64,000 nt of DNA, from NCBI GenBank assembly GCA_020628095.1, contig JAHDFP010000011.1, forward strand, positions 1 to 64,000. Direction: 5' to 3'. Source of the stretch: Saprospiraceae bacterium. GTDB lineage: Bacteria; Bacteroidota; Bacteroidia; Chitinophagales; Saprospiraceae. Every line of letters starts with the position of its first letter. Position 1 is the first letter of the stretch. This document shows, one piece after another, positions 1 to 33,560 of the stretch. The notes beneath the pieces are model-generated. The model was not told the DNA's origin. It saw only the letters and a program-made list of their open reading frames with translations, and did not search any database. The position numbers were made by a program, and so were the translations under genes.

Positions 1-53
1 CCGCGACCCCCTGCGTGACAGGCAGGTATTCTAACCAACTGAACTACCAGACC
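1..53 (-). tRNA. tRNA-Asp (GTC), 3' part outside the window
   Basis: Read on the minus strand, the 5' end begins at 53 with acceptor arm GGTCTGG, followed by a D-arm of the usual GTTCAGTTGGTTAGAAT type and an anticodon stem-loop CCTGC-CTGTCAC-GCAGG. The loop carries anticodon GTC, so this is aspartate. The T-arm and 3' acceptor strand lie beyond position 1. A good promoter lies upstream at 120-150, so this may be the first gene of its transcript. Confidence 0.93.
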
Positions 54-14738: not shown

Positions 14739-14775
14739 AAGGGGTGAAATTTTTTTTCACCCCTTTTTTTATTTT
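14739..14775 (+). terminator. Rho-independent terminator of the giant-gene pair
   Basis: Perfect stem AAGGGGTGAAA / TTTCACCCCTT (14739-14749 with 14755-14765), followed by a T-rich tail. It lies 26 bp after the stop of the 6467 gene. Confidence 0.88.
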
Positions 14776-14832
14776 TCGAGCAACGTTTTGCCTATTTCAC
14801 GCATATAATAAGTAATAAGTTGGTTTCCGTTG

Positions 14833-30090: not shown

Positions 30091-31182
30091 CTATTCTGAA
30101 AACACCTTTTCTTGCTGATCGATGCTCTCTGCGTGTACCGCTTTTATATAACTAACGAGAAACTTTTCACTTATGGATAATTCTTTGGCCTGTACTTTTG
30201 ATTTTTCTATAATCTCGTTCCATCTTTTTGGTTGATAGATGGTCATATTGTTCTCCTTTTTGTATTGACCTATTTCTCTGGCGGCATTCATACGATTAGA
30301 GATAAGGTTTAGTATTTCTTCGTCTATATGATCTATGACCTCTCTTAGCTGATCTAATTTACTTTGCAGTCGCATGTTATCTTCATAATCATGCCTTAGT
30401 TTCATATCCGTGATCATCTCACCGAATACTTCTGGCGTAATCTGCTGCTTAGCATCACTCCAGGCCTTATCAGGATCTATATGGGATTCTATCATGAGAC
30501 CATCATAGTCGAGATCCATCGCTTTTTGACCTACCGCCTGTAGTATATCTCGTCGACCACATATATGACTGGGGTCGCATATCATAGGTATCTCTGGTAC
30601 ACGCCTCATAAATTCGATGGCGATTTGCCATTGCGGACGATTTCTATAAAATTTTTCGCCGAGATTAGAAAACCCGCGATGTATCGCGCCCAGTTCTTTG
30701 ACACCAGCTTTTTTCAGTCTTTCTATACCGCCTATCCATAGTGCGAGATCAGGATTGATAGGATTTTTGACTAGAACAGGGACGTCCACGCCCTTTAGAG
30801 CATCGGCGATCTCTTGCACGGCAAAAGGATTGACAGTAGTACGCGCGCCTATCCATAGCACATCTATATCAAATTCTAAACACAACTCCACGTGTTTAGC
30901 TTTCGCCACCTCGACTGTGACAGGAAACCCTGTCTCTTCTTTGACCTTTTGCATCCAGGGTAATCCTTTGACACCGACACCTTCGAATGATCCAGGACTC
31001 GTTCTAGGCTTCCAGATTCCTGCTCTATAGATATCCGATTTGCCTGTTTTTTTGAGTCGATGAGCAGTCTCTAGTACTTGCTCTTCCGTCTCCGCACTGC
31101 ATGGGCCTGCAATGACTATAGGTCTTTTTTCTTTGGTTAACCATGATAATGGTCTTACTTGAATTTCTCCTTGCGTTTCCAT
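30091..31182 (-). CDS. Bifunctional 3-deoxy-7-phosphoheptulonate synthase / chorismate mutase type II
   Basis: First committed enzyme of the shikimate pathway (phosphoenolpyruvate plus erythrose 4-phosphate to DAHP), fused to chorismate mutase (chorismate to prephenate). Residues about 15-260 form the DAHP synthase barrel with AGPCSAETEEQ, GIWKPRTSPGSFEG, HRGFSNLGE and CDPSHICGRR. Residues about 272-363 form an AroQ-type helical mutase (LRxxIDxIDxEILNLISNRM, then the IYQPKRW segment). The 363-aa length is standard for the Bacteroidota fusion. It is co-transcribed 25 bp downstream of tyrA, so the operon covers both entry to the pathway and the tyrosine branch. Confidence 0.93.
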   Translation of the reverse strand: METQGEIQVRPLSWLTKEKRPIVIAGPCSAETEEQVLETAHRLKKTGKSDIYRAGIWKPRTSPGSFEGVGVKGLPWMQKVKEETGFPVTVEVAKAKHVELCLEFDIDVLWIGARTTVNPFAVQEIADALKGVDVPVLVKNPINPDLALWIGGIERLKKAGVKELGAIHRGFSNLGEKFYRNRPQWQIAIEFMRRVPEIPMICDPSHICGRRDILQAVGQKAMDLDYDGLMIESHIDPDKAWSDAKQQITPEVFGEMITDMKLRHDYEDNMRLQSKLDQLREVIDHIDEEILNLISNRMNAAREIGQYKKENNMTIYQPKRWNEIIEKSKVQAKELSISEKFLVSYIKAVHAESIDQQEKVFSE

Positions 31183-31207: not shown

Positions 31208-32077
31208 TTAGCTTTTGATATTTTGTTTGATGCCTTTGAGTACACCAGATATTTTATTTGATTCTGATATGGCGGCATACATACCTGTCCAGTCCCTCTG
31301 GTCCACCAGTTCCTTATATTTTTTCATGTACTTGATATATACATCTATGGCTTCCGAGAGATAATCTGGGTTTTTTTCGAATATGGCAGTCCAAGTTGTC
31401 GGATTGCATTTAGCAAGTCGGGCGGTAGAGGCAAATCCCGTACTGGCTAGATTAAAAATTTGCTTGTCATCTTTTTCTATTTCTAACACCGTCTGACTAA
31501 GCGCAAAAGAGGTCACATGAGAAAGATGAGATACATAGGCCAGATGTTTGTCATGTTCTTCTGGATTAAGATAAAAAGTATTCATACCTAAAAACTCGAA
31601 TACCTTCAACGCTTTCTCTAGTGCTTCGGGCTCGCTTTTTTCTTTTTCGCAGATTATATTTTTCTTACCATGAAAGAGATTAAGAATGGCAGCCTCTGGC
31701 CCAGAGAACTCTGTACCAGCTAATGGATGTGCTGCGACAAATCGTTTTCTATTGGGATGATCTTTGACAGCGAGGCAGATGTCCGATTTAGTAGAGCCGA
31801 CATCTATGGCGACTTGGTTGTCGCTAAGATTATCAAGTATATGAGGTAATATTTTTTCTATGATGTTAACTGGGGTTGCGATAATCATGACCTCGGATTC
31901 TGCGAGCGCTTCTTCCATCGATATAACCTTTTCTACGAGCTTAAGCTCTACGGCTTTCTCACCATGAGAGGGATTCTTATCGACTCCATATACCTGTATA
32001 GTACCTAATGATCTATTGTTTAGTTCTTTGGCAATTGATCCACCTATAAGTCCAAGACCGACTATTGTAATTATCAT
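31208..32077 (-). CDS. tyrA: Prephenate dehydrogenase
   Basis: Tyrosine-branch enzyme of 289 aa: prephenate plus NAD(P)+ to 4-hydroxyphenylpyruvate. A Rossmann nucleotide-binding motif VGLGLIGGS is at 6-14. DVGSTKSDIC and the active-site AAHPLAGTEFSGP follow, then the helical dimerisation domain with YVSHLSHVTSFAL. No ACT domain is fused, so the enzyme itself lacks that allosteric module. It is the first gene of the operon. Its ATG lies 12 nt after the T-run of a terminator preceded by a Tyr-rich leader ORF, which indicates transcriptional attenuation. Confidence 0.94.
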   Translation of the reverse strand: MIITIVGLGLIGGSIAKELNNRSLGTIQVYGVDKNPSHGEKAVELKLVEKVISMEEALAESEVMIIATPVNIIEKILPHILDNLSDNQVAIDVGSTKSDICLAVKDHPNRKRFVAAHPLAGTEFSGPEAAILNLFHGKKNIICEKEKSEPEALEKALKVFEFLGMNTFYLNPEEHDKHLAYVSHLSHVTSFALSQTVLEIEKDDKQIFNLASTGFASTARLAKCNPTTWTAIFEKNPDYLSEAIDVYIKYMKKYKELVDQRDWTGMYAAISESNKISGVLKGIKQNIKS

Positions 32078-32088
32078 AACCTATATCT

Positions 32089-32118
32089 AAAAAAAAAGTC
32101 CGAAGAAATCCTCGGACT
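32089..32118 (-). terminator. Leader terminator (attenuator) in front of tyrA
   Basis: On the minus strand AGTCCGAGG (32110-32118) pairs over 9 bp (one G-U) with CTTCGGACT (32097-32105) around an ATTT tetraloop, followed by a run of nine T ending at 32089. It sits between the leader ORF and the tyrA start, where a plain end-of-operon terminator would block the operon unless relieved. It could also stop read-through from the upstream amidohydrolase genes. Confidence 0.88.
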
Positions 32119-32149
32119 AATATTTTCTTTTATTTAAAAAGCAATACAA

Positions 32150-32209
32150 TCAGAGGACAACTTCTGTAGTCCAATAACCATAATATGTATTGCAATAATT
32201 ATTTCGCAT
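32150..32209 (-). CDS. Putative Tyr/Trp-rich leader peptide of the tyrA operon (19 aa)
   Basis: Too short for ordinary gene finding. The ATG at 32209 opens a 19-codon ORF encoding MRNNYCNTYYGYWTTEVVL and closes with TGA at 32150-32152. Tyr codons are at positions 5, 9, 10 and 12, with Trp at 13. The ATG lies 7 nt after a near-perfect promoter box, so translation would start almost at the first base of the RNA. The segment GTCCTC just before the stop (32153-32158) can pair with GAGGAT inside the terminator (32108-32113), and TTGGACTA (32167-32174) can pair with TAGTCCGA (32112-32119). A ribosome at the stop codon would mask the first of these, while one stalled at the Tyr codons would leave it free. 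That logic fits classical ribosome-mediated attenuation. No expression evidence is available. Confidence 0.7.
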   Translation of the reverse strand: MRNNYCNTYYGYWTTEVVL

Positions 32210-32216
32210 CGAAGTA

Positions 32217-32247
32217 CAAACTTAAGGGGAATATATTACTCCATCAA
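32217..32247 (-). promoter_or_regulatory. Promoter of the leader-tyrA operon
   Basis: On the minus strand TTG (32245-32247), a 20-bp spacer and TAAGTTTG (32217-32224), a full match to TTG/TAnnTTTG. It lies 30 bp after the stop of the upstream amidohydrolase gene and directly in front of the leader ORF. Confidence 0.75.
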
Positions 32248-32276: not shown

Positions 32277-33560
32277 CTATTCCTTGACCCCAGGGTCTCT
32301 TTGCAAGAATTCTTCGTAGAGCAAAGTATGTCTGCTTTCCAGAGGTACTTTCCACCCATCTATGAATAAATGTTTAATCTGAGTCTTCGTCTCGAATGGG
32401 TCACCATCTGAGACAAAAACATTGGCTACTTTTCCTCTTTCTATCGTGCCGTACTTGTCATCTATTCCAAAAATTTCTGCTGGAATAATGGTCACGGCCT
32501 TGAATGCTTCTCTCCATCCCATTCCATAAGCAGCGGCAAATCCAGCATTGTAAGGTAAGTTGCGCACATTCTCGGTTTCGTTAGTTCTGATCGCGACTTT
32601 CACGCCAGCTTTTTGCATTTTGCCTGCATTAGAATAAGCTGCGTCGAAATGGTCAGACGAGCGTCTCGGATTACTCAATATAGGTCCAGTGATAACGGGG
32701 ATATTGTATTTGGCCAAAGAGTCCGCAACCCTATATCCTTCTGCGACACCAGTGAAAATGGCCTTGACTTCATTTTCATTGACCCAGGCTATGGCGCTGA
32801 GTATATCAGATTTTTGATTTACCTCGATAAGTAGAGGTGCCTCTTTATTCACGATAGGAATAAGAGCATCTAATTGTGGGTTATATTTGGTCTGTCCTTT
32901 GGCGGCTAGTTGTGCCTGTAACTTGGCCTTATCCCAAAATTCTTTTAGTTTTTTCTTGGCTTTAGCTTCATCTTTTTTGATGTCCTCAGCAGATCGGCGA
33001 TCCCATCGACCTCTCTTGCCAGTACTTGGATAGTTAAATACCACTCCCTTAAATCCAGCATACATCTGCTCTGGTGTGTAGCCGTGCAGATTGATAAGTG
33101 CTGCCGTGCCAGGGAATCGACCTCCCGACGGAACAGCAAGGACGCTGGTGACTCCATTGACCCGAGTGACGGGTATATTAACTGAGTTAGGGTTAACCGC
33201 CGTGAGTGCTTGCATGTGAGGTGTGAATTCTCCTATTTCGTTATGGTCCTGTGTAAGAGATACAGCACCAATTTCTGCTAGTCCTAGTTTGGTACCGCTG
33301 TCGATCATTCCAGGATAGATCATAAGGCCTTTGCAATCCACTATCGTGGCGCCAGGATGGTCGATGGTCTCGGCAACTTCTTTGATTAGTCCATTTTCTA
33401 TAAGGACGTCGGCATCTATGAGTCCTTCGTAGACTGTCTCTACACGACCGTCTTTGAGTAGGAATATACCAGATTTTGATTTTTCTACCTGTTGCGATGT
33501 GAGCATCAAGGGTAAGACTAATAATAGAAGAACTTTATATATGGATTGACAATTTTTCAT
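32277..33560 (-). CDS. Exported amidohydrolase-fold protein lacking the usual metal ligands
   Basis: I place the start at ATG 33560, giving 427 aa, because a typical signal peptide follows (MKNCQSIYKVLLLLVLPLML, then SQQ); an upstream TTG would add six polar residues. The fold is imidazolonepropionase-like: ILLKDG, VLIENGLIKEV, MIYPGMIDSGTKLGL, and at the end GTIERGKVANVFVSDGDPF. In active enzymes PGMID is followed by HxH; here it is SGTKL, and the later acidic position reads TNETE. The protein is therefore probably not a metal hydrolase of the classical type. It is the third of three same-strand paralogues. Confidence 0.8.
   Translation of the reverse strand: MKNCQSIYKVLLLLVLPLMLTSQQVEKSKSGIFLLKDGRVETVYEGLIDADVLIENGLIKEVAETIDHPGATIVDCKGLMIYPGMIDSGTKLGLAEIGAVSLTQDHNEIGEFTPHMQALTAVNPNSVNIPVTRVNGVTSVLAVPSGGRFPGTAALINLHGYTPEQMYAGFKGVVFNYPSTGKRGRWDRRSAEDIKKDEAKAKKKLKEFWDKAKLQAQLAAKGQTKYNPQLDALIPIVNKEAPLLIEVNQKSDILSAIAWVNENEVKAIFTGVAEGYRVADSLAKYNIPVITGPILSNPRRSSDHFDAAYSNAGKMQKAGVKVAIRTNETENVRNLPYNAGFAAAYGMGWREAFKAVTIIPAEIFGIDDKYGTIERGKVANVFVSDGDPFETKTQIKHLFIDGWKVPLESRHTLLYEEFLQRDPGVKE

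Follow-up and report, generated by a model that had tools for sequence, protein, structure and literature searches.

We analysed a 64,000-nucleotide stretch of DNA from a Saprospiraceae bacterium (the window), in which tyrA and a gene for DAHP synthase fused to chorismate mutase lie in tandem on the minus strand. An earlier note on this DNA had proposed that the sequence just ahead of tyrA encodes a complete ribosome-mediated attenuator. The following features were computed at the locus.

32245-32247, minus strand: −33 element TTG, read from the window letters; the TTG-N20-box arrangement is exact in five of five genus loci.
32217-32224, minus strand: −7 box TAAGTTTG, of the Bacteroidota sigma-A type TAnnTTTG, read from the window letters and from the spacing in the genus loci.
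32150-32209, minus strand: leader ORF MRNNYCNTYYGYWTTEVVL including its stop, 19 codons, with the ATG at 32209 and the TGA at 32152-32150.
32167-32174, minus strand: second complement of the terminator arm, UUGGACUA, which pairs with 32119-32112 over 8 bp and overlaps the Trp codon.
32147-32158, minus strand: antiterminator 5′ strand GUCCUC-U-GAUUG, which runs across the leader stop codon (pairing and folding).
32108-32119, minus strand: antiterminator 3′ strand UAGUC-C-GAGGAU, which overlaps the terminator 5′ arm (pairing and folding).
32097-32118, minus strand: terminator hairpin AGTCCGAGG-ATTT-CTTCGGACT, 9 bp with one G-U pair and a tetraloop, −12.9 kcal/mol.
32089-32097, minus strand: T9 tract, the first T of which closes the hairpin stem.
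31208-32077, minus strand: tyrA, prephenate dehydrogenase (PDH_N and PDH_C by Pfam), with the ATG at 32077.
30091-31182, minus strand: DAHP synthase fused to chorismate mutase (by Pfam).

The promoter-like TTG-N20-TAAGTTTG, the leader ATG 7 nt past the box, the 19-codon ORF and the 9-bp tetraloop hairpin followed by T9 had all been described before and were found in the window letters, and Pfam confirmed the identities given to the two downstream genes; tyrA, which had been placed 12 nt after the T tract, begins after a gap of 11 nt. The leader peptide has tyrosine at positions 5, 9, 10 and 12, tryptophan at position 13 and no phenylalanine. An amidohydrolase gene lies upstream on the same strand and ends at 32277, approximately 160 nt before the hairpin. 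Given that the sigma-A box occupies −12 to −5 (PMC9723704), transcription would start at approximately 32212, which would leave a 5′ untranslated region of about 3 nt and only about 94 nt, mostly ORF, between the predicted start and the hairpin.

A caveat raised at the outset was that TAT is a frequent triplet in AT-rich DNA. This is fair for the ORF alone because the probability of at least five Tyr/Trp among 18 residues, given local triplets, is 4.7e-3. One ORF with a terminator passed the Tyr/Trp threshold in the window and none did in 40 Markov windows, a null that is lenient because each simulated window held 1.2 terminators compared with 8 in the real one. As a control, the leader scanner found a leader on the sense strand in 16 of 20 stretches and on the antisense strand in 1 of 20, and in a larger set in 26 of 40 and 1 of 40, respectively. 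Three of the four leaderless stretches among the 20 are DAHP synthase loci without tyrA (G008, G001 and G011). Under a looser Phe/Tyr/Trp threshold, a second candidate appeared in the window at 14744-14815 on the plus strand, where a Phe-rich short ORF is followed by a hairpin with a T run; it is probably a chance match because it lies after the end of a 2748-aa gene and before an ABC-transporter-like gene. The case for the attenuator is carried by conservation and not by the chance statistic for an ORF plus a terminator.

To examine conservation, we searched 60 genomes for tyrA and obtained a match at E <= 1e-20 in 26. Five genomes of the genus have tyrA directly ahead of the DAHP synthase gene with no earlier operon gene: G000 (the window's own genome), G003 (with a partial tyrA match, limited to residues 4-158 of 289), G005, G006 and G013. 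The attenuator reading would have been undermined by relatives with the same tyrA promoter and no Tyr-rich ORF or no terminator; the promoter, the near-leaderless start, Tyr and Trp codons and a terminator right before tyrA were present at all five loci. The gap between box and start is 7, 8, 9, 8 and 8 nt in G000, G006, G005, G013 and G003, respectively, so that the near-leaderless start noted in the window is conserved at 7-9 nt. G003 starts with GTG and its box is degenerate (TATGCTTA). The leader peptides are MRNNYCNTYYGYWTTEVVL (G000), MNNTKTYFTWSYFYYERNGL (G006), MNKTFTTYYTWSYFYLKNGL (G005), MNKTYTIYHTWSYSYFWKQNGL (G013) and MKTNTTVYTYWSSYWACSGF (G003), and aside from their aromatic positions they diverge. 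An alignment had been suggested as a check; it shows Tyr codons kept at five of five loci, but compensatory change in the two pairings can be judged only weakly from five sequences. The last sense codons are GGACTC in G006, G005 and G013, the complement of which is the GAGTCC of the terminator arm. In G003 they are GGGTTC and the pairing with the arm is kept through G-U, and in the window they are GTCCTC, with a partner further up the terminator arm.

The leader also follows tyrA in its absences. DAHP synthase gave 12 matches in 10 of the 14 genus genomes, and a leader was present at seven of seven of these loci with tyrA and at none of the five without it. Five of the seven have the leader directly before tyrA, and the other two (G004 and G010) have it before an aminotransferase-tyrA-DAHP synthase operon. 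No leader was found at the five tyrA-less loci, namely those of G008 and G001, two in G011 (one of which is only 36% identical) and the second copy in G010; leader-scan candidates at G001 and G011 were rejected as the end of the upstream gene (G001 on examination, G011 by likeness). G008 keeps the gene order of the window, with two amidohydrolase-like neighbours that are 68% and 76% identical and a DAHP synthase that is 75% identical, and its 144-nt gap before the DAHP synthase gene (L043 7847-7991), where tyrA is absent, contains neither leader nor terminator. Neither tyrA nor DAHP synthase was matched in G002, G007, G009 and G012, absences that say little because these genomes are 53-87% complete.

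We then considered the RNA pairings that could compete with the terminator. The pairing of 32158-32153 with 32113-32108 proposed in the earlier note exists, but its 6 bp proved too short: it continues past one mismatch as 32151-32147 × 32119-32115, so that the antiterminator extends to 11 bp and crosses the stop codon. This duplex is the best between the ORF end or linker and the terminator arm in the window (−12.5 kcal/mol; p = 0.03 in a comparison with 200 shuffled sequences), and none of 30 swapped partners equalled it. Antiterminator and linker hairpin together make a 20-bp fold of −15.0 kcal/mol, compared with −12.9 kcal/mol for the terminator. Duplexes reached p <= 0.05 in four of the five tyrA leaders and in 32 of 59 attenuators of all kinds (mean z −2.16); with an earlier, narrower pairing region the counts were 1 of 5 and 13 of 59, and the region was widened after this first result because the strand often extends past the stop codon. 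The best duplex of G003 lies away from the ORF end (p = 0.085). Perfect runs at the ORF end, with G-U allowed, measured 6-10 bp at all five loci, as counted without a chance estimate. The other pairing that had been pointed out, 32174-32167 × 32119-32112, is present over 8 bp. A second run of this kind, approximately 24 nt upstream of the last base of the stop codon and overlapping a Trp codon, occurs in the window (8 bp), G013 (7 bp) and G003 (10 bp), and none was found at that distance in G005 or G006. The idea that the 8-bp pairing is a peculiarity of the window was rejected, given the runs at the same distance in G003 and G013.

To relate these pairings to translation, we used a folding model in which the footprint of the ribosome extends 12 nt past the first base of the A-site codon. 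In the window, the modelled probability that the 5′ arm of the terminator is held upstream in the antiterminator was 0.86 with the A site at any of codons 3-14 and 0.00 with it at the stop codon, and 0 of 30 shuffles were as good. The model thus reproduced the proposal that a ribosome stalled for Tyr-tRNA frees the antiterminator and one at the stop codon masks it. The equilibrium probability of the terminator in the model was 0.61 at Tyr9, 0.01 at Tyr10, 0.09 at Tyr12, 0.56 at Trp13 and 0.97 at the stop codon; with a stall at Tyr5 the terminator wins at equilibrium (0.93). Across 86 attenuators, for which only the last six cognate codons were used, the antiterminator probability was 0.69 at cognate stalls compared with 0.17 at the stop codon, and this measure fell in the top tenth of 30 shuffles for 60 of the 86. 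For G003 the stall test was not significant (0.27 of shuffles as good). The equilibrium measure was weaker (top tenth in 46 of 86 overall and in two of the five tyrA leaders), and the terminator at stalls compared with the stop codon had the wrong sign in G013 (0.93 versus 0.87) and G003 (0.80 versus 0.71), so for these two the attenuator reading depends on the antiterminator being the first to form. In the pairing and folding sets, the L002 and L004 leaders were taken from an in-frame ATG that lies ahead of their presumed real start. For an untranslated leader, the modelled antiterminator probability was 0.85 in the window, which predicts read-through, 0.72 in G013, 0.43 in G005, 0.41 in G003 and 0.06 in G006.

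From these features we infer a transcription start, translation, stalling, termination and a response to tyrosine that would be linked as follows. Transcription would start about 3 nt upstream of the leader AUG. A shortage of charged tRNA-Tyr would stall the ribosome at Tyr 9, 10 or 12, and a shortage of charged tRNA-Trp would stall it at Trp 13. The strand around the leader stop codon would then be free to pair with the 5′ arm of the terminator once this has been made, and with the antiterminator formed RNA polymerase would continue into tyrA. With ample Tyr-tRNA, the ribosome would reach the stop codon and cover this strand, the terminator would form and transcription would end at approximately 32089. 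Conservation and the folding model lend good in silico support to the reading of the locus as an attenuator. We consider it probable (about 0.88) that a compact ribosome-mediated attenuator makes transcription of tyrA and the DAHP synthase-chorismate mutase gene depend on the supply of charged tRNA-Tyr and, secondarily, of tRNA-Trp.

An alternative that we regard as unlikely, and that fares best among those weighed, is that the leader senses general aromatic supply, chiefly Trp or Phe. The operon encodes the first enzyme of the entire aromatic pathway, and the Corynebacterium glutamicum leader aroR, which contains Phe-Tyr-Phe, answers Phe and not Tyr (Neshat et al. 2014, as described in PMC11802643). 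A Trp codon is present in five of the five tyrA leaders, compared with 16 of 44 operon leaders, and the second complement overlaps it in three of the five. Against this alternative, the window leader has four Tyr codons to one Trp and none for Phe, and the lowest modelled terminator probabilities fall at Tyr10 and Tyr12 and not at Trp13. The codon content of the leaders, which follows the genes behind them, counts in favour of the tyrosine reading. The fraction F/(F+Y) is 0 in G000, 0.33 in G006, 0.33 in G005, 0.20 in G013 and 0.25 in G003, and in the 44 operon leaders its mean is 0.57, with the lowest value (0.17) in G010, the operon of which shows no pheA. The two groups differ in this fraction (Fisher p = 1.5e-3; MWU p = 2.7e-4), in tests that count kindred genomes as independent and were selected once the leaders were known. 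The 44 exclude L027 and L155 (uncertain starts), both L062 leaders (shown apart), the second L162 leader, L170 and L171 (the peptides of which equal those of L153 and L150) and L061 (the tyrA leader of G005). G005 also has two leaders of a separate pheA, each with five Phe and one Tyr codons; its tyrA leader has two Phe and four Tyr codons.

The number of Phe codons in the tyrA leaders can be set beside the presence of pheA. There is no Phe codon in G000, a 98.7% complete genome in which pheA gave no match with PF00800 and a relative's PheA as queries, one in G003 (pheA not found, 79% complete), one in G013 (pheA in pieces) and two each in G005 and G006 (pheA found). G004, with four Phe codons and no pheA found, is a counter-example to the presence of pheA as the sole driver of Phe codons; the G004 leader precedes an aminotransferase gene. 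In G013, pheA lies in several pieces with stops (L064, L065, L184, L186 and L187), which reflect either a decaying gene or assembly errors. A search of G000 with PF01634 likewise gave no hisG match, whereas tyrA, trpE and ilvD are present, and judged from its gene content the organism is perhaps an auxotroph; the hisG search may miss some genes, as just 10 of 36 relatives gave a match.

We consider it very improbable that the hairpin does no more than end transcription of the amidohydrolase gene upstream and that the short ORF arose by chance in AT-rich DNA. The hairpin does lie behind that gene on the same strand, and a Tyr/Trp content of this kind is not very rare, as calculated above. However, the genes upstream of the unit vary: an amidohydrolase gene is found in G000 and, by eye, in G003, and other genes are found in G006 and G013, that of G013 on the opposite strand. 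The upstream gene of G005 (MscL-like, named by eye) already has its own hairpin and T run. The unit stays before tyrA in these three genomes, and it is missing from G008, which has kept the amidohydrolase gene but not tyrA. A promoter-like site also separates the upstream gene from the leader ORF at five of five loci.

It is just as improbable, in our estimate, that the peptide itself is functional and the terminator constitutive. Leader peptides can act in trans, as described for peTrpL (PMC7298713), but the divergence of the five peptides outside their aromatic positions and the complementarity of the ORF end to the terminator arm argue against this explanation. Least probable of all is another kind of leader RNA, that is, a T-box, riboswitch or protein-bound leader: such leaders also use competing terminators, and tyrosine genes elsewhere are under T-boxes (PMC1262725), but we rejected a T-box or riboswitch as no Rfam family of either kind matched at gathering thresholds in the window and no Rfam family at all did so in 20 relative loci, and the short, mostly coding distance from the predicted start to the hairpin speaks against the whole group. 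The Rfam Trp_leader model (RF00513) scored 22.4 bits against the window, compared with a gathering threshold of 41. The sole Rfam match in the window at gathering thresholds is a tRNA cut by the window edge (1-53, minus strand).

The tyrosine attenuator proposed here has counterparts in relatives. Trp and branched-chain attenuators are textbook examples of regulation, as are leader-peptide attenuators generally. We found pheA in 127 genomes and scanned upstream of it in all 26 genomes of the class, all six of the order or family (G055 appears in both L059 and L140) and 37 of 95 others. A Phe/Tyr leader with a terminator precedes pheA in 22 of the 26 class-level genomes, and such a unit does so in four of the six order or family genomes (L059/L140, L162, L165 and L166) and in one of the 37 genomes of other classes (9 plus 28, the latter 28 with 1.5 kb upstream only); antisense controls gave 1 of 40 and 0 of 30. 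Between the terminator and tyrA, ORFs sized for pheA and an aminotransferase number two in 11 of the 16 leader-bearing stretches among the 20 scanned above, one in four and none in G005; their identities were examined at L042, L044 and L047. Trp-rich leaders, mostly with WWW, were found before trpE at 14 of 22 loci (antisense 0), His-rich leaders before hisG at 7 of 10 (antisense 0) and Ile/Leu/Val-rich leaders before ilvD at 8 of 14 (antisense 1). The window's own genome has a Trp leader, MIKSLNNNWWWHLRSSHREEM, before trpE (L078) and an Ile/Val leader, MIKRSYIISSIISVIIITT, before ilvD (L108). Two complete units of leader ORF and terminator, placed in tandem before a single operon or gene and each with its own cognate codons, were observed at L051, L052, L053, L055, L062 and L162 (aromatic) and also at L067 (trp) and L105 (ilv). 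Two gates in series could sharpen the response.

The near-leaderless start of the tyrA leaders can be compared with that of other leaders. Leaderless mRNAs are reported at 5.5% in PMC9723704. With a gap of 4 nt between a box-like site and the AUG, the trp leaders of G000, G005, G011, G012 and G013 would be strictly leaderless; four of the five failed the two-element promoter test. Among the leaders upstream of pheA, 10 of 27 have a two-element promoter, with a gap of 17-24 nt in nine and of 4 nt in one. Because the other leaders mostly have gaps of 17-24 nt, the short 5′ untranslated region looks like a trait of the lineage and not a requirement. The control for near-leaderless starts is weak, with a strict promoter in 15 of 495 control ORFs, many of the gaps of which probably contain a leader. 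Translation initiation in Bacteroidota differs from the Shine-Dalgarno mode (PMC9723704), so the timely loading of a ribosome on a leader with almost no 5′ untranslated region becomes a testable question.

A broader reading is, in our estimate, less likely than not. The locus may be the first tyrosine-specific ribosome-mediated attenuator and part of an ancient network of attenuators for Phe/Tyr, Trp, His and Ile/Val within a single Bacteroidota class. In the genus, the leader AUG would have shifted to or almost to the first base of the transcript, and the ribosome would load on the emerging 5′ end, keep pace with RNA polymerase without a pause hairpin and mask the antiterminator directly; some relatives would have two serial gates. 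How Bacteroidota regulate their amino-acid genes has received little study, and the gene losses and split operons of this single genus provide a natural series in which leader codons can be set against the genes they control.

Prior literature places the proposal as follows. According to PMC1262725, histidine, threonine and phenylalanine operons have known attenuators and tyrosine operons are under T-boxes. No tyrosine-responsive ribosome-mediated attenuator was found among the literature matches listed. For another Bacteroidota species, Flavobacterium psychrophilum, one sentence of PMC9723704 mentions strong signs of attenuation by leader peptides ahead of amino-acid operons; the words tyrosine, tryptophan and aromatic do not occur in the main text of that paper, and its attenuation list is in the supplement.

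Several known systems resemble the one proposed here. The Sinorhizobium meliloti trpL leader ORF likewise lies at the extreme 5′ end of its RNA (PMC7298713), but that case concerns tryptophan and belongs to the Alphaproteobacteria. The aroR leader of C. glutamicum, ahead of aroF, is also an aromatic leader peptide before a DAHP synthase gene, whereas the window leader has four Tyr and no Phe codons and tyrA is its first gene. The source on aroR also names E. coli trpL and pheL as leader-peptide attenuators (PMC11802643). On the sequence and modelling evidence given here, what would be new is what we call a tyrosine-tuned version of the classical leader-peptide attenuator, and if true it would fill a gap. 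Regulation of the same kind has reportedly been predicted in Bacteroidetes/Chlorobi by comparative genomics, by Vitreschak et al. in 2004, whose abstract is said to include no tyrosine attenuator, and by Lopatovskaya et al. in 2010. Classical attenuators typically have a 1:2 protector or pause hairpin inside the leader. E. coli trpL and pheL share with the window leader the cognate codons in a short ORF, the terminator before the first gene and an antiterminator set by the position of the ribosome. The window leader differs from them in its Tyr codons, its tyrA target, its near-leaderless start and its phylum, and in that its predicted antiterminator strand lies at the stop codon of the leader and no obvious protector hairpin is seen.
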